In this document: positions 6,424 to 47,590 of the stretch, in pieces | How positions within the stretch are numbered: position 1 is the stretch's first letter | How the letters are laid out: each line of letters starts with the position of its first letter | Source: Shimia sp. CNT1-13L.2 | Lineage (GTDB): Bacteria > Pseudomonadota > Alphaproteobacteria > Rhodobacterales > Rhodobacteraceae | Direction: 5' to 3' | NCBI RefSeq assembly: GCF_024331145.1 | Contig: NZ_JANDJO010000002.1 | Coordinates: 310,001 to 374,000, forward strand | DNA length: 64,000 bases | The notes under the pieces: model-generated | Databases searched by the model: none | Told to the model about the DNA's origin: nothing | What the model saw: only the letters and a program-made list of their open reading frames with translations | Position numbers and translations under genes: made by a program

Positions 6424-6469
6424 GACGCGATTTCGAAATCGCGTCCAAAGCCCTTTGCAAAGGGCTTTG
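6424..6469. repeat. Two adjacent perfect palindromes between hppD and the dehalogenase gene
   Basis: A 22-base perfect palindrome (6424-6445, core GCGATTTCGAAATCGC) is followed at once by a 24-base perfect palindrome (6446-6469, core CCCTTTGCAAAGGG). Each can fold into a hairpin. The double palindrome looks like a dispersed intergenic element of the REP type; it may also end the hppD transcript, though no T-run follows. Confidence 0.6.
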
Positions 6470-32168: not shown

Positions 32169-32908
32169 GCGGCGGCCCTTTCACGGGTTTCCTGGCGTAG
32201 TGCATTGGCGATGAGTTGCGGGATACCGGGACAGAGGCCCAGGGCGGGCAGCAGGGGCCCGGCAAAGCCAAGGCCCCGCAGGGTGCCGTTCACATCGTCG
32301 CGCACGTGTTCGCCTTCCTGCGCGAAGAAGGGCAGGCACAGGGCGGGACCGGGCAGGCTCTGGGCGGTTTCGGCGATGTAGGGGGCCTGTTCCACGAACG
32401 TCGGGGCAATGCGGGCCACCGGCAGGATTTGCGCGAGGTGGTTGGCAAAGATACGGGCGGATTCCGCGGCCTTCTGTCCGCGTGCTGAGCCGTGGGCGGC
32501 GAGAAGGACAGAGGTGTCGTGCAGGTCATAGCCACGCAGGGCCGCGGCCTCGCGAATGGCGATGGCGGCGATGGCGGGAAGGGCCGGATCAAGGCCCATG
32601 GGGGGCAGAACCTGTACGTTGTGGCCGTCAAGCCGTTTGCGCAGTGCGGTGCGTACGAACCAGCCATCCGCCATGAACAGCGGGTAAATCAGGGTATCGT
32701 CTCCGGCCCGTGCAAGGGCGTTCTCAAGCGCGTCCGGCGCGGCCATGGTGGCCGAGGTCACGCGGTGGTCGGGCAGGTGAGATTGCACGCGTGCGGCCAG
32801 TTCCGCCAGCCGCGCCTCGGCGGGCTCGGGATCGGAAGGCTGGCCGTGAGCGACGATCAGTGCTTCAGTGGCTGGTGCCTTCGGAGAAGGTGATCTTGTT
32901 CCAGACAT
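32165..32908 (-). CDS. CbiX-like chelatase in the haem d1 operon
   Basis: 247 residues with two CbiX/SirB-type halves. The N-terminal half has the first metal-site His (His21, VAHGQP) but lacks the second (DGWFVRTAL at 81-89, where the family has His). The C-terminal half has both: His139 (AAHGSARG) and His201 (GEHVRDDV). Family members insert Co2+ or Fe2+ into sirohydrochlorin or precorrin-type rings. In this operon ferrochelation of sirohydrochlorin to sirohaem, the parent of haem d1, is the likely role (inference). The ATG at 32908 overlaps nirN by 44 bases; a later start would cut into the conserved first strand. Confidence 0.75.
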   Translation of the reverse strand: MSGTRSPSPKAPATEALIVAHGQPSDPEPAEARLAELAARVQSHLPDHRVTSATMAAPDALENALARAGDDTLIYPLFMADGWFVRTALRKRLDGHNVQVLPPMGLDPALPAIAAIAIREAAALRGYDLHDTSVLLAAHGSARGQKAAESARIFANHLAQILPVARIAPTFVEQAPYIAETAQSLPGPALCLPFFAQEGEHVRDDVNGTLRGLGFAGPLLPALGLCPGIPQLIANALRQETRERAAA

Positions 32909-34532
32909 TGTACTTTCCTGATGGCTTGCGCATGGGCAGGCGGCCCACTTGCTCAAGGGTTTTGGCGTCATAGATCAGCACCGCGCCGTCATCTTCCCAG
33001 ACCGACACGAGTGCGTGGCTGCCATCCTTGGTGAACTCCACGTGGGCGACGGTGGCCCCCGGCACGGGGCGCAGGGTTTTCACGATCTCGAGGCTTTGTT
33101 TGTCGATCACGTGCATCGCATCCTTGTTGGGACCAAAGAAGACATCAGCCCACACGTAGGGCGAATTCTCGTGACTTCTCATAAAAAAGCCCGGTCCTTC
33201 GGTTTTTATGCGTTTGATGGTCTTCCAGGTGGTCATGTCGATGACCGAAACGACCCCGTCTTTGAGGTGCGGCGTGGCCATGACGGTGGTGTCGCCATAG
33301 GCCCATGTGATGCCAGACCCGAGGTGTGGCATGCCGGGCAGATCAAGATCGGCGGTTTTCTGGCCGATCACGAGGTCGATCACGAGGCCGTTCTGGCCCC
33401 CGCGCGAGGCGCCCATGACGTATTCATAGGACTGGTCGAAGAAGAAATCATCGAGGTAATCCGGCGTGGTGATCCGGCGGATCGGGAATGGGGTATCCTG
33501 CGGCACGGGGCCTTCGATTTTCCAGTCATGGGCCAGCCCGCCAGCAAAGAGGTTCAGGTCGGGGTACTTGGCATAGGAGACCTCCCAGATTTCGGGAACG
33601 TCTTTGAGGGCCAGAACAAAGCTGTCGCGGGGCGGGGCCTGGTAGACAGCCGAGACACGGCTGGGCGTGCCGTCCTTGCCGGTGATGTCGTGGACCTCCG
33701 CGACGGAGAGGTCGCTTGTCGACAGGATGGTCAGCGTGTTGGGCAGGTAGTTGGCAACTGCCAGCCATTTGCCATCAGAGCTCATCGCGATGTTGCGGCT
33801 GTTGACGCCGGCGCGGACGCGACCAACCTCTTGCAGCGAGTAGATATCGTATTTCTGGACCCAGCCATCGCGCGACATGATGAAGACATAGCGGCCCGTG
33901 GGGTCGAATTTCGGGCCGCCGTGGACGGCGAAGGGCGTGGCGAAGCGGTCGAGCACTTCGAAGGTGTCACCGTCCAGCACGCTCACGTGGTGATCGCCGG
34001 TTTCCACGGCCAGCGTGATGTTCATCGGGTCCGAGGACCAGACGGGTGTGTCGGCGGGGGTATAGTCGTCGCGCAATTCGCGGCTGGCCATGATCTCGGC
34101 TTCGCCCCAGACCGGGGTTTCGGCAAGCGGGGACTTGAGATAGGCGGCGATTGCGTCAACTTCTTCCGTCGACAGGGTATCTGCGAAGGCGGGCATCTGG
34201 GTCGCGGGGCGACCGTCGAGGATCACGCCGGCCACCTTGGGGCCGCGCATACGCTTGAGAGTTTCGGGGATCAGCGCCGGGCCGGTGCCGCCAAGGCGGC
34301 TTTCTTCGTGACAGGAGGCGCAGTGCTCCTGATAGAGCGCGTCGGCGTCGATGGTCTCGCTCGCGCCGGCCATGCCTGCAAGGGCGATGGCGGCGCTGGC
34401 GAGGCCGAATTTTAGGCCAGCGTGGAGAGAAGGTCGCTGGCCAGAGGCGCGGGCCGAGACTGCATCACCGATCCGTCCAACAGGGGAGTTTGGGAAGGTA
34501 GGATGTTTAGAAGAACCGGTGTTGCGGGTCAT
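32865..34532 (-). CDS. nirN: NirN, c-type/d1-haem dihydro-d1 dehydrogenase
   Basis: 555 residues. Homologue of NirS: an N-terminal cytochrome c domain (C71-AS-C-H75) and an eight-bladed d1-binding propeller (about 165-555). NirN catalyses the last step of haem d1 making, introduction of the acrylate double bond, and hands d1 to NirS. The leader is long: about 37 polar residues precede the hydrophobic signal core ([18 protein letters not shown]). The ATG at 34532 has GAGG nine bases upstream and overlaps nirJ by 26 bases; no better in-frame ATG exists before the signal core. Confidence 0.9.
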
Positions 34533-35724
34533 GGCTTTTGCCTCGGAAAGGGGTGACGTTCAGGCGTTCACCTTCGTCGGTGACGCCGATTTCGGCGTTG
34601 CTGAGATAGCAGGCGGGATCTTCGGCCCAGGGGTCGCCGGTCAGTTGCAGGGCGCGGATGCGGGTGTTGCCGCCGCAGACGTCCTTGAGCTGGCAGGCGC
34701 CGCAGCGGCCCTTGAGCGGACGCGGGCGGGTGCGCAGGGTGGCAAGCATCGGGTCATCGCCGGTCCAGAGGTCCGAGAACTTCTGCGTCTTGACGTTGCC
34801 GATGGTGTAATCCGACCAGTAGGTATCAGGGTGGACCTTGCCCAGAAAGTCGATGTTGGCGACACCGAGACCGGAAGAGTTGCCGCCCCAGGCCGCGAGA
34901 TGTTCGCGCAGGTGGGCTTCTTTTTCGGCGTTAAAGTTGGCACGGACCCATTGCAGGAAATAGCCTGCGTCGGCGTCGTTGTTGCCGGTGACGATGTCGA
35001 GCGGGCGACCACCGGAGGCGGACTCCCATGCGCGTTCCAGCAGCAGGTCGAGGCCTGCGCGGGTCATCAGGTGGTGGGCGTCTTCGCCCCGGTTCTTGTC
35101 GCCACGACCGGCATAGACGAGGTGCGAGAGGTAGAATTTGTCGACGCCTTCGTCGTCGCAAAGCTTGATCAGGTCGGGCAGGTTGTGCTGGGTGCCTTCG
35201 GTCAGGCAGAAGCGCAGGCCAACCTTGACGCCACGCTTTTTCAGCTCGCGCACACCACGCACGGCGTTGTCAAAGGCGCCTTCGACACCGCGGAACCAAT
35301 CATTGGTGTCTCCGATGCCGTCGATCGAGATGCCGACATAGTCAAAGCCGATCTCGGCGACGCGGTCGGCGGTTTCGCCGAAGATCTTGGTGCCGTTGGT
35401 CGAGAGGGCCAGAACGCGGGTCTGTTTGCGGGCCTTTTCGGCAAGTTGGAAGAGATAGGGGCTGTCGAGGGGTTCACCGCCCGACAGGATCAGCGCAGGC
35501 ACCTTGAAGTCCCCAAGGTCGGCCAGCGTTGCCATGGCCTGTTCCTCGCTGAGTTCACCGGGAAAGTTCACGTCGGCAGAAACGGTATAGCAGTGGCGGC
35601 ACTTGAGATTGCAGCGGCGGGTCAAGTTCCAGATGACAACGGGTTTCACGGGCCCCGAACCGCGGCGTTGTCGCACGGGTGTCGGGTTGACCAGCTGGTG
35701 CATGTATTCGGTGAGGCGGAACAT
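34507..35724 (-). CDS. nirJ: NirJ, radical SAM enzyme of haem d1 synthesis
   Basis: 405 residues. Radical SAM cluster Cys38-Cys42-Cys45 ([15 protein letters not shown]) with GGEP motif; the C-terminal SPASM-like part has [13 protein letters not shown] and a further Cys (DPACYL) for an auxiliary [4Fe-4S] cluster. NirJ removes two propionate side chains from 12,18-didecarboxysirohaem, giving the keto precursors of d1. Minus-strand operon, four bases after nirH. Confidence 0.96.
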
Positions 35725-36214: not shown

Positions 36215-36663
36215 GCTGCGACCTTGAACCCTATGAAGAACTCTTTCAGTTTCGGGAAGCAGTGCACCTTGATGCCTGTTTCCGCTTCGATTTTCCCGGC
36301 GACGTCGGCAATGCCCTCGGGGGTTTCCGTTGCCAGGACAAACCACATGTTCAGGTGGTGTGTGCGTTCATAATTATGCGCCACCTCGGGATGCGCATTG
36401 ACTTTGGTCAGGATGGTTTCGAATTCCGCCGCAGGCACCGCCATGGCGCAGAGACAGAAGGCACCACCCATCGGCGCGACATCGAAGAACGGGCCGAAGC
36501 GGGTTAGAAAACCGTCTTCTTTCAATTGCTTGATGCGGGCGATCAGGGCGTCTTCGCTGATCCCCAGTTGCGCAGCAAGCGGGGCAAAGGGGCGATGCGC
36601 CAGCGGCATGTCTTCCTGAAGCAGGTTGATCAGGTCGCGATCGGATTGGGTCAGGTCACTCAT
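36211..36663 (-). CDS. nirG: NirG, sirohaem decarboxylase subunit
   Basis: 150 residues, same family as NirD/L/H. Winged helix at 5-50 (SDRDLINLLQEDMPLAHRPFAPLAAQLG) and RAM-like domain with LTRFGPFFDVAPMGGAFCLCAMAV and the conserved HHLNMWFVL. Partner in the sirohaem decarboxylase complex. Overlaps nirH and nirDL by ATGA, so the three are coupled. Confidence 0.86.
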   Translation of the reverse strand: MSDLTQSDRDLINLLQEDMPLAHRPFAPLAAQLGISEDALIARIKQLKEDGFLTRFGPFFDVAPMGGAFCLCAMAVPAAEFETILTKVNAHPEVAHNYERTHHLNMWFVLATETPEGIADVAGKIEAETGIKVHCFPKLKEFFIGFKVAA

Positions 36664-37664
36664 GCCGCGCGCTCCGGCCGGGCGGCGATCATTGCGCCGG
36701 TCTGCTTGAAGCAGCGCAGCGAGAACAGCGCCTTGTACTGGACGCCCGCCAGCTCGGGAATGGCGGCGGCATTGCCAAGGTGCTTGAGCGCCTCAAGGCG
36801 GCTTTGGGCATGGATCATCGAATAAAGACGATAGGGCCAGACACCTTCGACAGGGGTGCGTTCATAGCAGAGCGTCACACCCGGTTGCAGGGCAAGGCGG
36901 GGGCCTGCGATGGCCACCTGATCGGCGGGCACGTCCCAGACAACCATGGCATTGGCGCTCCAGCCAAGGGCGCGGTGACGGACGATCACGCCAAGGCGCG
37001 AGATGATGTTGGCCTCGGCCAGAACCGCGACGCGGGTCAGGATGTCGTCTTCGCTGCGACCCAGATCAAAGCCAAGCGCGGCATAGGGGGCGCTGGTGAG
37101 GGGGAGGCCGACCGAGAGGGCCTGAAGGATGTCGCGATCGTCTTCGCGCAGGACGCTAAGGTCGGTGGCGCGGCGGGTGCGCGGGATCTTTCCGGCCTCG
37201 GGCTGGTTCATGCGGAAGCCGAGATCGACGTTGAAGGGGCGCACAAGGCGCAGGTCGAGAACCCGCAGGCCGCTACGCTGTTCAAGACGGGCGAGGGTGG
37301 CATCGACATAGGCGCGGTCGGGGCCGGTGGCGACGAACCAGAGGTTCCAGGTGTCTTCGCGCAGGTAGGAGTGGTTGATGCCCGGTTCGTCCTGAATCAG
37401 CGCGGCCACTTCCTCGATGCGCTCGGGCGGCGCGGCGATGGCGGCAAGCGTACTGGCCGAGATGGTGTTGGGCGCGCAGGTTGCGCCGACGCGGGCAATG
37501 CGGCCACAGGCGACCATGCGTTGCAGGCGGGCCAGAAGGTCATCCTCGGCGATGTTGAGGACATTGGCCATGCGCTGGAACGGGCGCGCGGTGATCGGGA
37601 AGCCGCGCTGCCAGTCGTCAAGCAGCGCGCGGTCGATGGGATCGGCGACGTTTTTCATGATCAA
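36660..37664 (-). CDS. nirDL: NirD-NirL fusion, sirohaem decarboxylase
   Basis: 334 residues made of two NirD/L-like units: 1-150 (NirD-like, ALLDDWQRGFPITARPFQRMANVL... and NHSYLREDTWNLWFVATG) and about 170-325 (NirL-like, DRDILQALSVGLPLTSAPYAALGFDL... and ISRLGVIVRHRALGWSANAMVVWDV). Fused NirDL proteins are known in Paracoccus and others. A second in-frame ATG at 37658 is equally possible as start. Coupled to nirF by a 4-base overlap. Confidence 0.92.
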   Translation of the reverse strand: MIMKNVADPIDRALLDDWQRGFPITARPFQRMANVLNIAEDDLLARLQRMVACGRIARVGATCAPNTISASTLAAIAAPPERIEEVAALIQDEPGINHSYLREDTWNLWFVATGPDRAYVDATLARLEQRSGLRVLDLRLVRPFNVDLGFRMNQPEAGKIPRTRRATDLSVLREDDRDILQALSVGLPLTSAPYAALGFDLGRSEDDILTRVAVLAEANIISRLGVIVRHRALGWSANAMVVWDVPADQVAIAGPRLALQPGVTLCYERTPVEGVWPYRLYSMIHAQSRLEALKHLGNAAAIPELAGVQYKALFSLRCFKQTGAMIAARPERAA

Positions 37665-38803
37665 AGCCCCGTGCGGTGGGCGCGGGCGGTAAAGAAGATG
37701 CCCGAGGGGCTGTCTGCTTCGATCTCGCGCAGTTTTTCAAAGGTGTGGGTGTCGTAGACCATGACCTTTCCGGCATCGCGGACGCTGATCCAGATTTCGT
37801 GGCCGCGCGGTGTGAACTCCATGTGCAGCACGGCCGGGCCGGGTTTGAATTCGTGGATGATGGTCTTGGTCTTGCTGTCGATCACCTGAATGGTGTCGTT
37901 CAGCGGGTGGGCAAAATTCACCCAGACCTGGCGGCCGTCCGGACGTGCCATGGCGAACACGGGCTGGCCATAGGTCTGGGTGCGTCCGGTCTCCGTGAGT
38001 GTGTCGGCATCGACCCAGAGCACTTCGTGGTGGCCGACGGCAGGCAGGACGAATTCGCGGCCCGTCAATGCCCAGCCTTCGAGGTGAGGCATCTTGTAGA
38101 CGGGCATTTCCTTTTTGCCACGGCCATAGCCGGGCAGGACGCGGATCGGTTTGGGATCGTCTTCCCAGAGATCCAGCGCGGTGAGGCCGTCTTCGCCGAA
38201 GAGGCCGGTGATATAGGTGCGGCCATTGCCGGTGATCAGCGCGTCATAGGGGTTTTCGCCCATGTCGGTGATCTTGGTGATCTCCATCTCGTCGCCGGAG
38301 AGGTCGGCAATCCAGGTCTCGCCGGAATCCCACATGGTAAAGACAAAGCGTCGGCCGGGGGCGTCGACTAGGCCGATGGTTTTGCTGTCGGTGGGGATGT
38401 CGGCAACCATCTCGAGGGTCTCGGCATCGAAGATGCGCACGCCGCCTGGTTCGTAGTTGGACACCGCGACCAGTTTGCCGTCGTCCGAAATCGCGCCGCC
38501 GATGGCGTTGCCGGCCTGAACCACGCGGCCCGCGATTTCACGGGTGACGATGTCGACCTTGGTCAGCCCGCCGTCGCGGCCAAAGACATAGGCAAAGCGT
38601 TCGTCGGGCGAATAGACCAGCGAGGCGTGCGAGAGATCGCCAAGGCCTTCGATCCGGGCCAGGGCGGCGCGGTCGGATTGGTCAACCAGAAGGACAGAAC
38701 CCTTGGCACGTTCGATCACCAGACCCAGATCGCCGGTGGCGGTGGGTTCGGCAGAGACCGAGGTGGCGAGGATCAGGGCAAGCGCGGTGGTGAGGCGTTT
38801 CAT
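37661..38803 (-). CDS. nirF: NirF, haem d1 maturation protein
   Basis: 380 residues with a Sec signal (MKRLTTALALILATSVSA) and no lipobox, so a soluble periplasmic protein. The mature part is an eight-bladed propeller resembling the d1 domain of NirS without the cytochrome c domain. NirF is needed for a late step of d1 making. The start at 38803 gives the signal peptide; the longer frame to 39007 lies inside nirC. Confidence 0.94.
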   Translation of the reverse strand: MKRLTTALALILATSVSAEPTATGDLGLVIERAKGSVLLVDQSDRAALARIEGLGDLSHASLVYSPDERFAYVFGRDGGLTKVDIVTREIAGRVVQAGNAIGGAISDDGKLVAVSNYEPGGVRIFDAETLEMVADIPTDSKTIGLVDAPGRRFVFTMWDSGETWIADLSGDEMEITKITDMGENPYDALITGNGRTYITGLFGEDGLTALDLWEDDPKPIRVLPGYGRGKKEMPVYKMPHLEGWALTGREFVLPAVGHHEVLWVDADTLTETGRTQTYGQPVFAMARPDGRQVWVNFAHPLNDTIQVIDSKTKTIIHEFKPGPAVLHMEFTPRGHEIWISVRDAGKVMVYDTHTFEKLREIEADSPSGIFFTARAHRTGL

Positions 38804-39168
38804 TCGTAGTCTCCCTTGAGGAGGTAATCGGCAATCCATGCAGCTTCGGTTTCGCTCATCAGCGGGCGCCAGGGCGGCATGGCGGTGCCCTCGATCCCGT
38901 CGAGGATCACCATTTGCAGGATGTCGGCTTCGTAGTGTTCGATCGCCTCGCGGCGCAGGTCGGGGCCAAGGCCGCCCTTGAGGCGCAGGCCGTGGCAGGA
39001 GCCGCAATCCTGATGGACGAGGCGTTGCAGGGCGTCGGCATTGACCTGATCCTCGGCCCTTGCGGCGCCCGGATGCGTCAGGGCACAGGCCAGGACGATC
39101 AGGGCGCCAAGGAGAGCCGCACGCTGGTTTGCATTGCGGCGGGGGAGGATGCGGGCGAAACTAGGCAT
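38800..39168 (-). CDS. nirC: NirC, small periplasmic cytochrome c
   Basis: 122 residues. Signal peptide (hydrophobic core AALLGALIVLACALTHPGAARA), single haem site C55-GS-C-H59, and a distal Met candidate in TAMPPW. NirC is a class I cytochrome that can pass electrons in d1 maturation or to NirS. The ATG at 39168 overlaps the nirE stop by 8 bases. Confidence 0.92.
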   Translation of the reverse strand: MPSFARILPRRNANQRAALLGALIVLACALTHPGAARAEDQVNADALQRLVHQDCGSCHGLRLKGGLGPDLRREAIEHYEADILQMVILDGIEGTAMPPWRPLMSETEAAWIADYLLKGDYE

Positions 39169-39925
39169 GGGCGCTAACCGGCTCGAACAGCTCGGCGGCG
39201 TTTTCTCCGTAGAGGGACACCACCTTGCCGATGATGAAAAGGGTGGGGTTGATGACGTCGGCCTCGCGTACGTCGCGGGCGGCGTTGCCAAGGGTCGAGA
39301 CCAGACGGCGCTCTTCCCTGGTGGTGGCCTTGGTGATGGCGAGGACCGGTGTCTGCTCGGAAAGGCCTTCGGTCATCAGGCCCACGGCGATCTGGCCGAT
39401 GTTGGAAACGCCCATATAGATCACGAGGGTGGTGTCGGGATCGGCGAGGCGCTTCCAGTCGAGATCGAGCACCTTGCCGGCCTGACGGTGGCCGGTCACG
39501 TATTGCACGCTGGTGGCAAGGCCGCGGTGTGTGAGCGGCACGCCGGTCGAACAGGACGCGCCCTGCGCGGCTGTGATGCCGGGGGCGTATTCGATGTCGA
39601 CACCGTGTTCGATGAGGTAGGCGGCTTCTTCCGAGCCACGGCCAAAGATCATCGGATCACCACCCTTGAGGCGGGCCACGGCTTTGCCGGCCTGTGCCTG
39701 TTCAAGCAGGATCTCGTTGATCCGGTCCTGCGGCACGGGGTGGTGACGCGGGCATTTGCCCACGGCGATGGTTTCGGCGTCCTTGGGCATCAGGGCGAGG
39801 ATTTCGTCTGACACCAGTCGGTCGTAGACGACGACTTCGGCAGATTCGAGCATCCGCAGGGCACGCAGGGTCATCAGTTCGGGGTCGCCCGGGCCTGCGC
39901 CGATGAGGAAAACTTTGCCGGTCAT
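39161..39925 (-). CDS. nirE: NirE, uroporphyrinogen-III C-methyltransferase
   Basis: 254 residues, a single SUMT domain without the CysG dehydrogenase/chelatase part. Motifs: VFLIGAGPGDPELMTLRALRML (SAM site), VVYDRLVS, and the RLKGGDPMIFGRGSEEA segment. It makes precorrin-2 for haem d1. First gene of the second nir transcript; a Dnr-type box lies 139 bases upstream. Confidence 0.95.
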   Translation of the reverse strand: MTGKVFLIGAGPGDPELMTLRALRMLESAEVVVYDRLVSDEILALMPKDAETIAVGKCPRHHPVPQDRINEILLEQAQAGKAVARLKGGDPMIFGRGSEEAAYLIEHGVDIEYAPGITAAQGASCSTGVPLTHRGLATSVQYVTGHRQAGKVLDLDWKRLADPDTTLVIYMGVSNIGQIAVGLMTEGLSEQTPVLAITKATTREERRLVSTLGNAARDVREADVINPTLFIIGKVVSLYGENAAELFEPVSAHA

Positions 39926-40063: not shown

Positions 40064-40077
40064 TTGACAAAAGTTAA
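40064..40077. promoter_or_regulatory. Dnr-type box upstream of nirE
   Basis: TTGAC-AAAA-GTTAA, a perfect inverted repeat of the type seen at nirS and norC, with a different spacer. Placed 139 bases before the nirE ATG, giving an expected start near 40029 and a leader of about 100 bases. It directly abuts the terminator hairpin of the cupredoxin gene. Confidence 0.85.
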
Positions 40078-40132: not shown

Positions 40133-40549
40133 TCAGGGCGTCACGGTCACCATGCCGATCATGTCATGGCTTTCCCAGTGCGGGCCGCAGAGGTAATCGA
40201 CGGGTCCCGGTTCCAGGAAGGTGAATTCGATGACTTCCTCGGGAAAGGCGCGATCGGATTCGGGCATGCCCGCGTCGGGCGACAGGACGCTGTGGCTGGT
40301 GCGTTTTTCGACGTTGACCCAGCGCACGGTTGTGCCTGCGGGAACGGTGATTTCGGCCGGGCAGAATTTGTATTTGTACATGGTGACAACCGTCACGCCC
40401 TCCGCTGCGGAGGATGGTTCACCGAAGATGTCGACGTAACGCTGTTCGGCCTCGGCGCAGAGCGCGGCCGCGTCGTCATCGCCGGCAAGAACGGGGAAAG
40501 CCGCCGCGACGGACAGCAGGGTGGCGGTCAGAAAAGAGGTGTGGCGCAT
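40133..40549 (-). CDS. Periplasmic cupredoxin (plastocyanin/pseudoazurin-like)
   Basis: 138 residues with a Sec signal (MRHTSFLTATLLSVAAAFPVLA). A type-1 copper protein: ligands His86 (RTSHSV), Cys121, His124 and Met130 in YLCGPHWESHDMIG. The C-x2-H-x5-M loop is one residue longer than in plastocyanin and pseudoazurin (x4). Two further Cys (31, 63) may form a disulfide. It lies between the NapC-like cytochrome gene and nirE, so it is a good candidate for electron delivery to NirS (inference). It is preceded by a strong hairpin, hence perhaps expressed less than nirS. Confidence 0.85.
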   Translation of the reverse strand: MRHTSFLTATLLSVAAAFPVLAGDDDAAALCAEAEQRYVDIFGEPSSAAEGVTVVTMYKYKFCPAEITVPAGTTVRWVNVEKRTSHSVLSPDAGMPESDRAFPEEVIEFTFLEPGPVDYLCGPHWESHDMIGMVTVTP

Positions 40550-40578: not shown

Positions 40579-40604
40579 AAGCGGCCGGGAGGGCCCGGCC
40601 GCTT
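40579..40604 (-). terminator. Hairpin between the multihaem cytochrome and cupredoxin genes
   Basis: An 11-pair GC-rich stem (40579-40589 with 40594-40604) followed on the minus strand by CTTTCTTTTC. It could end or attenuate transcription after the cytochrome gene. Confidence 0.65.
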
Positions 40605-40612
40605 GGGTTTGC

Positions 40613-42403
40613 TTATTGCTTGACCACGTTGATTGTGGCGTTTGCGTCGTCCAGTGCAAGGCTCGTGTTGAGCGTCACGTGGTGGAAGCGCGCAGCGGCA
40701 TAGTCATCGTGGATGGCAAAGCCGACGGTGTAGGTCTTGCCCGCTTCGAGCGGAACATCACCTGCGGCACCGGTGTCGAGGGCGCGGGAGAAGACCACGG
40801 TCCACATGCCAGCCGAGAGTTTGGCCGATGCGGCGATCTCGCCTTCGTTTTGCACCCGGCTTTCCAGCAGGTAGCCGTTGGTGGCGCTGCCGTCGGCATA
40901 GACGCGCATCAGGTCCATGAAGGTGCCGTCGGCGAGATACTGGTCGATCTCTTCGGCTGCCTTCAGCTTGTCCCAGCCGCCCTGAGCCTTGCCGCGACGC
41001 CCCTTGATCTCGATCTTGGTGCGCGACTCGGCGAGGTACTTGCTGACGCTGGTTTCGGCATTCAGGCGTGCGGCGATGTCACCTGCGGCGGCAAGACCTT
41101 CTGCACCCGGATCAAAGGGCATGTAGGTGTTGTCCGCGTGGCAGGTTGCCCAGCAGCCGACCTGTTCCCCCAGTTCGATACCGGTGCCGGTGATCATCAT
41201 TGCCACCTTGACCTGGTTTTCCGGGTCCATCTTGCCACCGTCCACGAAGGGGGCAGGGGCGTGCGGCGTGTCCGGCCATTGCAGGCGGAAGTAGACGTTT
41301 TCACCGTCGTGGGCCGCTTGCAGGGTGGCCGGGATCGTGCCGCGTTTGCCCGGGATCGGGGTGGGTTCAAGCTCGTCTTCCTTGCCGCCAGCGCCAGCCA
41401 CGATCTTGTTGCCGATGGCTTCAAGTTCCTTGGCGTGGCAGGTGGTGCATTGGTCGCCGCCCTTGGTGAGGGGACGTGCGCCGCCGTGCTGTTTGCCGTT
41501 CTGGACCCATTCGAACGAAGCCTGACCCGGGTAGAAGAGGGTCATGTCCGCCGGGGTGATGGCGTTCCAGTCTATGTTGCCGCCAACCGAAGCACCGGCG
41601 TCGGCCGAGGTTTCACCGGCTGCCAGGGCACGTTCCGCGGCCACGGCTTCTTCGACCGCAGCTGCGATCTGGGCCTGAACCTGTTCACGCGCTGCCGCGT
41701 CTGCCGCTTTCTTTGCGTCGGCTTCGGCTGCTTCCTTGGCTTCGACACGTGCCAGGCTGTCGAGGTATTCCTGCGGGATCTCGCGGATGAAGTCCGGGTT
41801 CGGAGCTTCGATCATCTCGAGGAATTCATCGGAGGCGCGGTCACGCGGGCTGGTGTGGGCGATGCCCTTGTGGCAGTCGATACAGGTCTGGCCGGTGGTC
41901 ATCGCGTTGAGGTGCTGCTGACGGGCGCGGGGTTTCTGGAACTCGGGCATCATCGACTCGAAGTCGTGACAGTTCCGGCACTCGCGCGAGTCGGTGGCCT
42001 TCATCCGCTTCCATTCGTTCTTGGCGAGGTGCAGACGCTTGGCTTCGAATTTCTCCTCGGTGTTGATGGTGCCCATCACCTTGCCGTAGAGCTCTTTCGA
42101 GGCCTTGATCTTGCGGATCATCTTGTGGGTCCAGTCCTTGGGCACGTGGCAGTCGGAACAGACTGCGCCCACACCCGAGCGGTTCACGTCGTGAATGGTG
42201 CCCTTGTACTCCTGGTAGACGAAATCATTCATCTCGTGGCAGGAGATACAGAAATCCTTGGTGTTGGTGGCTTCCATGGCGGTGTTGAAACCACCCCAGA
42301 AGACGATACCGGCGATAAACGCCGCAGCGATCCCGGCAAGTGGCATTCCGTAGATGAAATACCGCCGCCAGATCGGCTTTTTGGTTTCCGTTTCGTTGGT
42401 CAT
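40613..42403 (-). CDS. NapC/NirT-type tetrahaem cytochrome fused to an EB_dh-like C-terminal domain
   Basis: 596 residues. N-terminal anchor helix (17-38), then four haem sites typical of NapC/NirT quinol dehydrogenases: C52-IS-CH56, C82-SD-CH86, C142-RN-CH146, C174-ID-CH178. A charged, Ala-rich coiled-coil stretch (about 215-265) links to a C-terminal domain (280-596) with CTTCH (319-323) and a CWATCH (417-422, C-x3-CH) site; the beta-rich remainder (VYFRLQWPDT..., WTVVFSRALDT...) resembles the cytochrome c-552/ethylbenzene-dehydrogenase haem domain. Likely moves electrons from ubiquinol to periplasmic carriers for NirS without the bc1 complex (inference). ATG at 42403 follows GGAG. Second gene after nirS, 202 bases on. 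Confidence 0.83.
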   Translation of the reverse strand: MTNETETKKPIWRRYFIYGMPLAGIAAAFIAGIVFWGGFNTAMEATNTKDFCISCHEMNDFVYQEYKGTIHDVNRSGVGAVCSDCHVPKDWTHKMIRKIKASKELYGKVMGTINTEEKFEAKRLHLAKNEWKRMKATDSRECRNCHDFESMMPEFQKPRARQQHLNAMTTGQTCIDCHKGIAHTSPRDRASDEFLEMIEAPNPDFIREIPQEYLDSLARVEAKEAAEADAKKAADAAAREQVQAQIAAAVEEAVAAERALAAGETSADAGASVGGNIDWNAITPADMTLFYPGQASFEWVQNGKQHGGARPLTKGGDQCTTCHAKELEAIGNKIVAGAGGKEDELEPTPIPGKRGTIPATLQAAHDGENVYFRLQWPDTPHAPAPFVDGGKMDPENQVKVAMMITGTGIELGEQVGCWATCHADNTYMPFDPGAEGLAAAGDIAARLNAETSVSKYLAESRTKIEIKGRRGKAQGGWDKLKAAEEIDQYLADGTFMDLMRVYADGSATNGYLLESRVQNEGEIAASAKLSAGMWTVVFSRALDTGAAGDVPLEAGKTYTVGFAIHDDYAAARFHHVTLNTSLALDDANATINVVKQ

Positions 42404-42558
42404 GTCCAAGCTCCGTCTTGGCTTTTTTGCTAACGGCCCCATGGGGGAAGGGCGCTTGATTGGATTGCGAGGAGCGGAAGGCATTTGCCGGGTTCTTGGC
42501 GGGTGCTACCGGACTGTCCTGCCGGTCGCCGCAATCCCGATACCGCTTTGTAAAGAGG

Positions 42559-42583
42559 AAGGGCGGGCGCTGGGCCCGCCCTT
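42559..42583 (-). terminator. Hairpin between nirS and the multihaem cytochrome gene
   Basis: A ten-pair GC-rich stem (42559-42568 with 42574-42583), with CCTCTTTA on the minus strand after it. Likely a partial terminator or a 3' mRNA-stabilising structure that sets nirS expression above the genes behind it. Confidence 0.6.
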
Positions 42584-42605
42584 CCGGAGACGATGAAACG
42601 TCGGT

Positions 42606-44282
42606 TTAGGTGACGTGGTTCGAACGGTTGTAGACGTTGAACTTGCCGGTCGGGGCGTAGAGACCCTTCACGCGGCCGATTTCTTCCAGCGTCTTGGCAT
42701 CGTAGATGACCATTTCGCCGTTCGGCTCCTTCGAGGTTGCACGGTTCCACTTGGAAACCCAGACCTCGGTACCGTCCTTGTTGAATTCGAAGTGAACGGC
42801 AACGTTACCTTCGTCTTCAGTGATCTGGATGGTCTTCACGATCTCGCCGGTCTCTTTCGAGATGACCTGCACCGATTGCTGAACTTCCAGCTCGGGGTGC
42901 TTGGTCTGGTCAGCCCAGTAGTAGTCCGAATTCGGGTGAGTCCGGATGAACAGGCCCGCACCGTCGGTTTCCACTTCGTAGCAGGTTTTCCAGGCTTGGT
43001 CCGGGTGACCTTCGGGGTCGTTGCCCCAGACAGTCACAGTACCTTCGCCGAGGTGAGTCGTACCAGCAACCGGACCGCAGTTCGGGTCGTTCCAGTTGGC
43101 GCCGGGGCCGGGGTGCGGCAGCGGTGCGGTGTCGATCATCGCCTCAAGCTTGCGCTCTTTGGTGTCGACAACAACCATCTTGTTCGACGCGTTTGCGGCG
43201 ATCTGGAAGTAACGACCGGTCGGATCAAAGAAGCCGTCGTGCAGGAACTTGGCCGAGTTGATCTTGTCGATACGCAGGTTGTCGAGGTCCGAGTAGTCGA
43301 CCTGCCACAGCTGGCCGAGTTCTTTCACGGCAACGATCCAGGTCGGCTCGTTCGGGGTGGTGTAGATGGCAGCCACGCGGCTTTCTTCCACATAGTCACC
43401 GTCAACGTTGGTACCGCGGGTCGAAACCACTTTAAGCGGCTCCATGGTCATCGCGTCAACAATTGCGAAGTGCGGAGGCCAGTAGGCACCGCCGATGACG
43501 TATTTACCGTCGCCGGAAACAGCCACGTCGCGGGCGTCATAACCGATGGAAACTTCCGAAACCAGCATCTTGTCCGGCGTTTGCCAGAGGTCGATCTTGG
43601 TCATCTTGCCGTCGCGGCCCATGGTGTACCAGAAGCGGCCCGGGTTTTCCGGTTCTTCCAGCTTGTGGTGCTCGGACGCTTTCAGAACGTGCACAGCGTA
43701 ACCCGTTGGGATGTGTGCCAGAACTTCTTTGGTGTCGCCGTCGATCACGGCCACTTTACCCACGTCACGCTCGATGACGACGAAGAAGTTTTCCCAGTTG
43801 CGGCCGTGCAGCGGCTCGGTCGGGTAGTCGGCTTCTTCTACATAGACCTTGCGGGTCTGTTTCATCTGCTCAAGCGACATTTCCGGCGGCTTGGGCGGAT
43901 CCATCATGATGTAGGTCGCCATGTCTTTGATTTCTTGCTCGGTCATGATGTCCGAGAAGTTGTTCATACCGCCTTCGGTACCCCAGGAGATAATCTTTTC
44001 AAGACGTTCCTGGCCGAGCTTGAGCGTGCCGGATTCGGTCACGGTGCCGTCGGCATTCTTTTTCTTCACGATCGGCTCGAGGCTTTTGCCGGTCGCGCCT
44101 TTGCGCAGTACGCCGTGGCAACCGGCGCAGCGTTCAAAGTAGAGCTGCTTGGAAGCTTCGAAGGCTTCTTCGCTCAGGGTGGGTTGTTCAGCGATTGCAG
44201 GCACGGCAGTGGAGCCAAGCAGAAGCGCGAAGCCAATCCCTAGTGCCCGTTTGGATTTTTTGTAGGTGATTCCAAGTGACAT
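42606..44282 (-). CDS. nirS: Cytochrome cd1 nitrite reductase (NO-forming)
   Basis: 558 residues. Sec signal (KRALGIGFALLLGSTAVPAIA), cytochrome c domain with C52-AG-C-H56, and the eight-bladed d1 propeller (about 145-558). It reduces nitrite to NO in the periplasm. Compared with NirN it keeps the histidines expected in the active site (for example AVHVLKASEHHKL region). The ATG at 44282 has GGAGAG seven bases upstream; the GTG two codons earlier is less likely. A perfect Dnr-type box lies 63 bases upstream. Confidence 0.97.
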   Translation of the reverse strand: MSLGITYKKSKRALGIGFALLLGSTAVPAIAEQPTLSEEAFEASKQLYFERCAGCHGVLRKGATGKSLEPIVKKKNADGTVTESGTLKLGQERLEKIISWGTEGGMNNFSDIMTEQEIKDMATYIMMDPPKPPEMSLEQMKQTRKVYVEEADYPTEPLHGRNWENFFVVIERDVGKVAVIDGDTKEVLAHIPTGYAVHVLKASEHHKLEEPENPGRFWYTMGRDGKMTKIDLWQTPDKMLVSEVSIGYDARDVAVSGDGKYVIGGAYWPPHFAIVDAMTMEPLKVVSTRGTNVDGDYVEESRVAAIYTTPNEPTWIVAVKELGQLWQVDYSDLDNLRIDKINSAKFLHDGFFDPTGRYFQIAANASNKMVVVDTKERKLEAMIDTAPLPHPGPGANWNDPNCGPVAGTTHLGEGTVTVWGNDPEGHPDQAWKTCYEVETDGAGLFIRTHPNSDYYWADQTKHPELEVQQSVQVISKETGEIVKTIQITEDEGNVAVHFEFNKDGTEVWVSKWNRATSKEPNGEMVIYDAKTLEEIGRVKGLYAPTGKFNVYNRSNHVT

Positions 44283-44344
44283 GATCACTCTCCGGTTTGC
44301 TGGTGAGGCAGGCTCATGTCTGGCGGAATCCGGGATTCGTATCC

Positions 44345-44358
44345 TTGACTTTCGTTAA
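44345..44358. promoter_or_regulatory. Dnr-type box between nirS and nnrS
   Basis: TTGAC-TTTC-GTTAA, identical to the norC box. 63 bases before the nirS ATG and 98 before the nnrS ATG, so able to serve both divergent transcripts. Confidence 0.9.
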
Positions 44359-45756: not shown

Positions 45757-46209
45757 ATGCGTGAAGTCATGACTAAAAGCATGGCCCGTAACATCTTCTA
45801 CGGCGGGTCACTGTTTTTCATCATTATCTTCTTGGGACTATCGTTCCATTCGCATCGCTATATCGTCACCACCTCGACGAACGTCGAGACCCTTACCGAG
45901 AGCGTCGCTGCCGGTAAGAAAGTGTGGGAAGATAAAGCATGCATCAACTGCCACACGCTGATGGGGGAAGGCGCCTACTTTGCTCCTGAACTTGTCAACG
46001 TAATGACACGCTGGGGTGTAGAAGATGACCCCGAAGGTGCATTCGACGTTCTGAAAGGCTGGATGGACTCTCAGCCCACCGGAATCGAAGGCCGTCGTCA
46101 GATGCCTCAGTTCAACCTGAGTGACGAAGAAGTTCGTCAATTGGCTGACTTTTTCCTGTGGATCAACACGATCGACGCACAGGACTGGCCACCGAACGAA
46201 GCGGGTTAA
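45757..46209 (+). CDS. norC: NorC, cytochrome c subunit of NO reductase
   Basis: 150 residues. One N-terminal membrane helix (13-30), haem site C62-IN-C-H66, and the GEGAYFAPELVNV segment typical of NorC. Takes electrons from periplasmic cytochromes or cupredoxins to NorB. AAAGGAGAG ends six bases before the ATG. norCBQDEF form one plus-strand operon. Confidence 0.97.
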   Translation: MREVMTKSMARNIFYGGSLFFIIIFLGLSFHSHRYIVTTSTNVETLTESVAAGKKVWEDKACINCHTLMGEGAYFAPELVNVMTRWGVEDDPEGAFDVLKGWMDSQPTGIEGRRQMPQFNLSDEEVRQLADFFLWINTIDAQDWPPNEAG

Positions 46210-46222
46210 GGAGGTCTGAACT

Positions 46223-47590
46223 ATGAAATACAAAACTCAGAGAATTGCCCTTGTCTACTTCGCGGTAGCGATGGCCCTCTTCGCGATCCAGGTGCTGGGC
46301 GGTCTGCTCGCCGGCTGGATCTATGTTTCCCCCAACACGCTGTCGGAACTCTTGCCGTTCAACATCGTGCGCATGCTGCACACCAACTCGTTGATCGTCT
46401 GGCTGATCCTTGGCTTCTTTGGCGCGGCCTACTTCCTGATCCCGGAAGAGACCGAGCGTGAGATCCACAGCGAAAAACTTGCCTATATCCAACTGGCGAT
46501 CCTCGTGGTCGGCACCCTGGGTGTGGTCGTGACTTATGTCTTCAACCTGTTCGAGGGCCACTGGCTCCTGGGCAAGGAAGGCCGCGAGTTCATCGAACAG
46601 CCCAAGTGGGTCAAGGCAGGTATCGTGGTTGCGGCTCTGATGTTTCTCTACAACATCACGATGACCGTGCTTAAGGGTAAGAAAACCGCTATCTCGAACA
46701 TCCTGCTTCTGGGTCTTTGGGGTCTGGCGCTGCTCTTCCTCTTCAGCTTCTACAACCCGCACAACCTGGCACTCGACAAGCAATACTGGTGGTACATCGT
46801 TCACCTGTGGGTGGAAGGCGTCTGGGAACTCATCATGGCCTCTATCCTGGCCTACCTGATGCTGAAGCTGACCGGTGTTGACCGCGAGGTTGTCGAAAAG
46901 TGGCTCTACGTGATCGTTGCTGCGGCCCTGTTCTCGGGCATCCTCGGCACTGGCCACCACTACTACTGGATCGGTACCCCCGGTTACTGGCAGTGGATCG
47001 GCTCGATCTTCTCGTCGCTGGAAGTCATCCCGTTCTTCGCCATGATGGCATTCGCCTTCGTGATGGTGTGGAAAGGGCGTCGTGACCACCCGAACAAAGC
47101 AGCTCTGCTGTGGTCGCTCGGCTGTGCCACTCTGGCCTTCTTCGGCGCGGGCGTCTGGGGCTTCCTGCACACGCTGCACGGTGTGAACTACTACACCCAC
47201 GGCACGCAGATCACCGCCGCTCACGGCCACCTGGCCTTCTACGGTGCCTATGTCTGCCTCAACATCGCTATCTTCAGCTACGCATTGCCGATCCTGCGCA
47301 ATCGTGACCCCTATAACCAGGTGCTGAACATGGCCTCGTTCTGGCTGATGACCTCTGGCATGGTCTTCATGACCTTCGTGCTGACCTTTGCCGGTACGAT
47401 CCAGACCCACCTGCAACGCGTCCTTGGCGAATACTACATGGACGTTCAGGACCAGGTCGAAATCTTCTACTGGATGCGTTTCGGTTCTGGTGTGGTCGTG
47501 GTTCTTGGTGCGCTCCTGTTCATCTACTCGATCTGGGTGCCGCGCAAAGAAATCATCGAACCCGGTGCTGCTGAAACTCCTGCGGAGTAA
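46223..47590 (+). CDS. norB: NorB, catalytic subunit of cytochrome c-dependent NO reductase
   Basis: 455 residues, twelve membrane helices. Haem-copper oxidase family: haem b His in MLHTNSLIVWL, Fe_B-site His and Glu in VHLWVEGVWELIM, the HH pair in GTGHHYYWIG, and paired His in AAHGHLAFYGAY. Reduces two NO to N2O at the haem b3-FeB site. No N-terminal quinol-oxidase extension, so a cNor. Confidence 0.98.
   Translation: MKYKTQRIALVYFAVAMALFAIQVLGGLLAGWIYVSPNTLSELLPFNIVRMLHTNSLIVWLILGFFGAAYFLIPEETEREIHSEKLAYIQLAILVVGTLGVVVTYVFNLFEGHWLLGKEGREFIEQPKWVKAGIVVAALMFLYNITMTVLKGKKTAISNILLLGLWGLALLFLFSFYNPHNLALDKQYWWYIVHLWVEGVWELIMASILAYLMLKLTGVDREVVEKWLYVIVAAALFSGILGTGHHYYWIGTPGYWQWIGSIFSSLEVIPFFAMMAFAFVMVWKGRRDHPNKAALLWSLGCATLAFFGAGVWGFLHTLHGVNYYTHGTQITAAHGHLAFYGAYVCLNIAIFSYALPILRNRDPYNQVLNMASFWLMTSGMVFMTFVLTFAGTIQTHLQRVLGEYYMDVQDQVEIFYWMRFGSGVVVVLGALLFIYSIWVPRKEIIEPGAAETPAE

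Follow-up and report, generated by a model that had tools for sequence, protein, structure and literature searches.

The locus considered here raises the question of what a large multihaem cytochrome does directly beside nirS, and by which route it might carry electrons from quinol to nitrite. The window is the whole stretch of DNA that was analysed, 64,000 nucleotides from Shimia sp. CNT1-13L.2, and the gene lies at 40613..42403 on its minus strand. A sequence-only reading had placed the gene at the same coordinates, without giving the strand, and described a six-haem NapC/NirT protein fused to an EB_dh-like domain inside the nirS operon. It proposed a self-contained electron conduit from quinol to NirS that avoids the bc1 complex, and it suggested a survey of co-occurrence with nirS and with the adjacent cupredoxin gene.

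The open reading frame (ORF) runs from an ATG at 42403 to a stop codon at 40613-40615 and encodes 596 amino acids, which confirms the coordinates. An alternative in-frame ATG at 42484 would give a product of 623 amino acids. The start at 42403, also chosen in the earlier reading, is favoured because GGAG lies seven bases 5' of it. The protein contains five CXXCH motifs and one CX3CH motif. Four haem sites are in the N-terminal part (CISCH at residues 52-56, CSDCH at 82-86, CRNCH at 142-146, and CIDCH at 174-178), and two are in the C-terminal part (CTTCH at 319-323 and CWATCH at 417-422). When the residues were shuffled 20,000 times, 19,859 shuffles had no CXXCH motif, 141 had one, and none had more than one, compared to five in the real protein. 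The ORF translation bears out the layout first read from the letters: four CXXCH sites, a linker, CTTCH, and CWATCH.

Both domains are also as they were first named. The NapC/NirT domain (residues 25-186; 41846..42331, minus strand) matches PF03264 (Cytochrom_NNT) at 241-245 bits, with 241 bits set against a curated cut-off of 24.1. The same family is matched by 29 of the 29 members of set A2 at E <= 0.001. The C-terminal domain (residues 277-576; 40676..41575, minus strand), which holds CTTCH and CWATCH, is of EB_dh type by sequence, with 110 bits for PF09459 against a curated cut-off of 33.3. The NCBIfam model TIGR02161 is matched over positions 22-183 of 185, and its cut-off is missed (272.7 vs. 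310.6 bits). This model describes a narrow, stand-alone subfamily; the miss weakens the claim to an ordinary NapC/NirT protein and leaves the domain itself unaffected. A hydrophobic stretch was read from the sequence at residues ~15-39, and a low-confidence model has a helix at residues 11-48. The four CXXCH sites follow this putative N-terminal membrane helix, as in NapC/NirT proteins. Between the domains is a charged linker (residues 211-260; 41624..41773, minus strand), predicted to form a single helix (block pLDDT 47-84), although the model is poor elsewhere.

NirT, a tetrahaem cytochrome, and NirB, a dihaem one, are encoded by separate neighbours in the nir operon of Pseudomonas stutzeri (Stutzerimonas), according to passages of PMC13086519. 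In P. stutzeri, NirB is encoded on the same transcript as nirS and nirT, and a route from NirT to NirB to NirS has been drawn (PMC8954225). The P. stutzeri nirSTBM arrangement and the present locus are alike in having a tetrahaem and a dihaem cytochrome right after nirS (PMC8954225), but nirT and nirB are two genes in P. stutzeri, whereas the window has one gene with an inter-domain linker of about 90 residues. The C-terminal part has two haem motifs and follows nirS and the NirT part directly, which is the position of NirB. Two relatives carry the same components in split form. At L167 (genome G644) and L168 (genome G317), nirS is followed by a four-haem NapC-type gene of 195-202 amino acids and then by a separate EB_dh protein of 305-336 amino acids, with one CXXCH and one CX3CH in each EB_dh protein. 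Because of its domains, and because of these split nirS-nirT-nirB loci with the same NirB motifs, we identify the gene as a NirT-NirB fusion; its NirB identity relative to P. stutzeri is taken from gene order, size, and haem count. Its N-terminal domain is also common to NapC, NrfH, and TorC, from which it differs in the C-terminal partner (the TorC match ends at residue 234).

The sequence-only reading knew of no description of the function of such a protein. The conduit that it proposed is the NirT-NirB-NirS proposal already in print for the separate proteins (PMC8954225), and the fusion is known too. Fused NirTB is reported in Halomonas sp. 2A (Li et al. 2018, through PMC13086519); it is a fusion of the same two proteins, and it is likened to the window by its published description, not by sequence. 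The CX3CH site had also been called rare. It recurs in the unfused NirB-like gene at each of the eight loci L166-L173, and we rejected the motif as a distinguishing mark of the fusion for this reason.

The gene order around the fusion is that of a nir cluster. The nirS gene (42606..44288; PF02239, 395.8 bits), which the tree places in the NirTB-associated lineage, is followed by a gap of 202 bases, the fusion, a gap of 66 bases, and a gene for a 138-amino-acid cupredoxin (40133..40549; PF00127). Next are genes resembling nirE (tetrapyrrole methylase, 39161..39925; PF00590), nirC (cytochrome c, 38800..39291; PF13442), nirF (37661..38800; PF02239), nirDL (sirohaem decarboxylase, 36660..37664; PF22451 and PF17805), nirJ (radical SAM, 34507..35724; PF04055), and nirN (cytochrome with d1 domain, 32865..34490; PF02239 and PF13442), all on the minus strand. 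The nirC-like ORF overlaps nirE by 131 bases, so its true start is probably later. Beyond nirS, we take the next plus-strand genes to be an NnrS-like gene and a norC/norB-like pair (45757-47590). On a kin plasmid, the corresponding genes carry the annotations NnrS family protein, cytochrome c, and cbb3-type oxidase subunit I. Outside the window, the genome has a second, stand-alone NapC-type gene (contig C7:383938-384447).

The fusion is patchily distributed in its own family. Among 295 sampled family genomes, 44 match it at E <= 1e-20, and only 12, the present genome included, match at near-full length. In one more genome (G114), a fragment from the C-terminal part is present at a contig end, and the remaining listed matches cover the NapC part only. 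G210, the sole other sampled member of this genus, lacks the fusion and gives no cd1 match. In 12 of the 12 genomes, the gene next to the fusion encodes a cd1-domain protein with a PF02239 score of 377-399 bits. A different NirS type, with scores of 479-511 bits, occurs in 34 of the 295 genomes, and the fusion adjoins none of these genes. Genome G087 carries both NirS types on separate contigs (C208 and C240), with the fusion beside one of them, and offers a natural comparison.

The suggested survey of co-occurrence was extended to 80 loci, those examined out of 141 relatives from the GTDB collection. The tie to nirS proved very strict, with nirS upstream of the fusion in 80 of 80 loci and a cupredoxin downstream in 79, counts that are not independent because many of the loci are close kin (mainly Ruegeria) and the set overlaps the 12 family genomes. 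The one exception (L076) shows no cupredoxin in the 2.6 kb available downstream. The loci come from Ruegeria, Pseudovibrio, Roseibium/Labrenzia, Shimia, Aliiroseovarius, Pelagimonas, and their kin. Each has exactly one ORF with five CXXCH and one CX3CH, the CX3CH motif having been used in choosing the ORF. Plasmid-borne fusions were found in Ruegeria, Aliiroseovarius, and Azospirillum brasilense Sp 7; of the 214 plasmid records that matched, 5 did so over 80% or more of the query. Two loci depart from the usual arrangement: L133 has an extra four-haem NapC-type gene (at 6429) immediately 5' of nirS in addition to the fusion, and L312 (3505-6960) has a tandem pair of nirS genes ahead of the fusion.

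The NirS trees agree with this linkage. On a tree of 86 rows, 4 changes suffice to explain the labels fused, split, and none, compared to a mean of 23.0 for shuffled labels, and none of 200 shuffles gave a value as low. In a second tree of 58 rows, to which rows from another class were added and from which others were thinned by hand, a branch with support 100 sets off 26 rows, comprising 22 fused, 3 tandem, and 1 without NirTB (L248). The other 32 rows comprise 29 without NirTB, 2 split, and 1 fused (the Azospirillum plasmid). Both trees are quick and midpoint-rooted only, and L176 forms a long branch. The fusion marks one deep NirS lineage. The fusion of L176 (7957-9639) has C-x3-CH (CSSTCH) as its first NirT haem site in place of CXXCH.

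The Azospirillum plasmid has the order nirS-like cd1 gene, fusion, and cupredoxin, and its fusion groups with the two split loci in the 86-row tree. Its linker has many Ala and Pro residues, while the linkers of the main lineage share an EAPNPxFxRxxPxxY-like stretch and a charged part. A separate, second fusion event is therefore likely, and the Azospirillum fusion probably arose on its own, as judged from NirS-tree place and linker composition. In a tree of NirB domains, the fused rows, Azospirillum included, are on one side of a branch with support 77/32, which is undecisive alone; its rows were picked by the CX3CH motif, and L176 was left out because its first haem site is CX3CH.

The cupredoxin in the window has the type-1 copper pattern of His, Cys-x2-His, and Met. 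Its nearest solved kin are plastocyanin (1bxu), amicyanin, and pseudoazurin. A strict ligand pattern is matched by 73 of the 80 relatives; in six Pseudovibrio loci, HT replaces HS. At L248 (4605-6880), a NirS of the NirTB lineage is directly followed by a cupredoxin with no NirTB, which points to the cupredoxin as a NirS partner. Cupredoxins were not found beside the fusion at L076, L313, L175, L307, and L308, so this neighbour is not obligatory. In the split locus L168, a 129-amino-acid mono-haem cytochrome c follows nirS-nirT-nirB where the window has the cupredoxin. We infer that the cupredoxin would serve as a shuttle to NirS, replacing NirM. The conduit had been thought self-contained, with the C-terminal module as its electron exit; this is doubtful, because a cupredoxin next to the fusion in nearly all of the 80 loci suggests a shuttle between the fusion and NirS.

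It is likely, in our view, that the fusion serves as a route from quinol through NirT, NirB, and the cupredoxin to NirS. Quinol would be oxidized by the NirT domain, which its N-terminal helix would fix in the inner membrane. The analogue is ImoA, a NirT-like protein able to sustain respirations that depend on quinol when cymA is mutated in Shewanella (PMC9600427). Electrons would cross the four haems of NirT to the two c-haems of the NirB domain, tethered in the periplasm. The NirB domain would pass them to the small neighbouring cupredoxin, standing in for the mono-haem NirM, and the cupredoxin would deliver them to the c-haem and d1-haem of NirS for reduction of nitrite to NO. The fusion may hold NirT and NirB in fixed one-to-one contact. 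NirS would gain a quinol supply beside bc1, whose cytochrome c1 is encoded in the same genome, and not necessarily in its place. A direct quinol route would forgo the proton pumping of bc1. A trade of energy for rate has been discussed (PMC3475470).

The distribution of nirTB could also be read in another way. In Stutzerimonas, nirTB accompanies clade 1b NirS and not clade 1a, and strains that delay nitrite reduction while nitrate lasts carry nirTB, according to passages of PMC13086519. Many NirS clusters are without NirTB; in 60 regions (L207-L266), some of which end at contig ends and one of which (L249) has no NirS-labelled gene, neither a NapC nor a NirB gene was seen. These observations would suit an accessory or overflow branch, in which bc1 normally feeds NirS and NirTB matters only in nitrate/nitrite competition or in some redox states. 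We regard this as rather unlikely, and the very strict tie to one NirS lineage exceeds what an optional branch would need.

Expression of the cluster bears on a second alternative. The placing of the fusion inside the nirS operon agrees with gene order; a single uninterrupted transcript is questionable, given a strong hairpin in the gap after nirS and a nirE gene that may have its own promoter. The hairpin is a 12-bp GC-rich structure with stem GGGCGGGC just 3' of the nirS stop codon (42557..42585, minus strand), detected by folding and in relatives, and it is missing from the terminator-scan list because its tail has too few T. The predicted fold of the gap between nirS and the fusion outranks those of 199 of 200 shuffles (z -3.0), and the 12-bp stem contributes to this in part. 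In 74 of 80 relatives, the gap contains a perfect stem of at least 7 bp, against a mean of 3.15 and a largest value of 6 in single-base shuffles, and GGGCGGGC itself is present in 74 of the gaps. The stem is a possible attenuator or message-protecting element; our guess is that it could end part of the transcripts or shield the nirS message, which would leave more nirS than nirTB. A terminator-like hairpin is present between the fusion and the cupredoxin (40579..40604, minus strand), from a scan that listed 7 sites in the region against 6.3 expected. Crp/Fnr-like boxes with one mismatch precede nirS (44345..44358, 56 bases before the gene), nirE (40064..40077), and norC. The window has nine such matches compared to 4.53 expected, and at least nine occurred in 4 of 100 shuffles, so the boxes are statistically weak, if well placed.

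A fusion made in smaller amounts than NirS, as the conserved post-nirS hairpin suggests it may be, might act mainly as an activator. A few electrons would switch NirS to its active reduced state, and the bulk would arrive through bc1 and the cupredoxin or a cytochrome c. The genome that encodes the fusion also encodes cytochrome c1 of bc1, and reductive activation of cytochrome cd1 by a NapC has been reported (Zajicek 2004, cited in PMC13086519). NirT is stated to be required for nitrite reduction in strain ZoBell (PMC13086519, citing Jungst 1991 and Hartig & Zumft 1999), which favours the preferred route and argues against this role, though an essential activator would fit as well. Partnering of NirT with NirB and a shuttle would also exceed an activator's needs, and we consider a mainly activating role improbable.

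The preferred route through NirB involves c-haems in the C-terminal domain. In a profile search, the closest solved chains to this domain were NxrC (7b04_C, E 1.3e-4) and EbdC (2ivf_C, E 6.7e-4), which belong to the same domain family. The domain model is poor (mean pLDDT 51.3, pTM 0.60), as is the full-length model (mean pLDDT 49.9, pTM 0.37). With the weak domain model, Foldseek gave NxrC (4.5e-8) and EbdC (3.6e-7) as top matches, followed by the carbohydrate-binding modules 7nwo and 1i82 (1.2e-4 and 3.1e-4); NxrC and EbdC were likewise best with the weak full-length model. This ranking agrees with the sequence profile and is no proof at such model confidence. The matches to the haem-free modules 7nwo and 1i82, ranked below NxrC and EbdC, would favour a docking module without c-haem. 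That reading is hardly credible, since none of the 80 relatives lacks either haem motif, and Cys319, Cys322, His323, Cys417, Cys421, and His422 are kept in 38 of 38 aligned NirB rows. Candidate ligands His306, Met392, Lys399, Met428, Lys455, His565, and His574 are shared by 37-38 of these 38 rows. The domain differs from EbdC and NxrC in having two CXnCH c-haem sites. Assignment as the gamma subunit of a type II DMSO reductase was rejected (TIGR03477, 28.4 vs. a cut-off of 169.85 bits), and no molybdoenzyme was found among the 10 cluster proteins scanned. The EB_dh family is, we presume, the one associated with the name cytochrome c-552, which is also the name of NirB.

NirB-type domains also occur outside this lineage. 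A profile of the C-terminal domain matched 11 of 398 genomes of the phylum, and five of these have the fusion beside nirS (the present genome, G520, G601, G602, and G378). In G554, G642, G463, and G363, the EB_dh domain is located away from nirS. In another class, that of G554, the profile matched 28 of 274 genomes, and 26 further regions were fetched. Twelve complete single fusions were found there, with nirS directly upstream in 11 (the contig of the twelfth, L301, ends too early) and a cupredoxin after 11. NirT-NirB-NirB proteins of 919-989 amino acids with eight haem sites follow nirS at L302, L307 (6696-9461), and L308 (1181-3940), and two NirB copies are also seen in L306 and L309, both cut off by contig ends. 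The copies of L302 are near-identical and flank a run of N, so an assembly artefact is possible there; such a run is absent from L307 and L308. L314 and L317 are contig-end pieces within nir clusters. NapC and NirB are encoded separately at L315 and L316, and the NirB-like proteins at L318-L322 are 409-454 amino acids long; no nirS is labelled at any of these seven loci.

We rejected an association of the tandem form with loss of the cupredoxin. By tblastn, cupredoxins were found at L302 and at the partial tandem L306, and only L307 and L308, from one genus, lack one. ORF-based labels had missed one cupredoxin that tblastn found, and single absences from ORF lists are weak.

Two further settings of the pair were observed. 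In L166 (7573-11262) and L172 (5840-9492), a NapC-type gene, a NirB-like EB_dh dihaem gene, a two-haem cytochrome gene, and a gene for a flavocytochrome c sulfide dehydrogenase flavoprotein (by PF21706 and PF09242) are in a row without nirS, and SoxY is nearby in L166, an arrangement that would apparently couple the pair to sulfide oxidation. A sulfide-linked NirT-NirB pair is named in no title among the matches listed from open-licence literature. In L316 (3387-8374), genes for a multihaem cytochrome with 11 CXXCH motifs, an MtrB/PioB porin (478 bits), a NapC protein, and a NirB-like protein are in a row, and by sequence this arrangement resembles an outer-membrane electron conduit whose membrane end is a NirT-NirB pair.

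It is possible, at chances a little short of even, that NirT-NirB is a portable quinone-pool adaptor for many periplasmic redox systems and that the nirS fusion is one adopted case. Beside nirS, the pair has probably undergone two or more fusions and, in the tandem proteins, gained a second NirB domain. If the adaptor reading is true, the current in the sulfide setting could even run towards quinone.

Fused NirTB itself was already known, and its further members are widespread; what is added here is the strict tie to a NirS lineage, the cupredoxin, and the pattern of a portable module. Database records H1-H5, labelled "NapC/NirT family cytochrome c", likely encode NirTB. One deep lineage of cd1 NirS travels with its own quinol-side cytochrome and cupredoxin. 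Ruegeria and Pseudovibrio strains with the cluster are predicted to reduce nitrite when bc1 is blocked, and relatives with the other NirS type to do so much less. A link between nirTB and nitrite accumulation has been discussed (PMC13086519), and the sharing of electrons between bc1 and a direct quinol route in denitrification bears on the build-up of nitrite and N2O.
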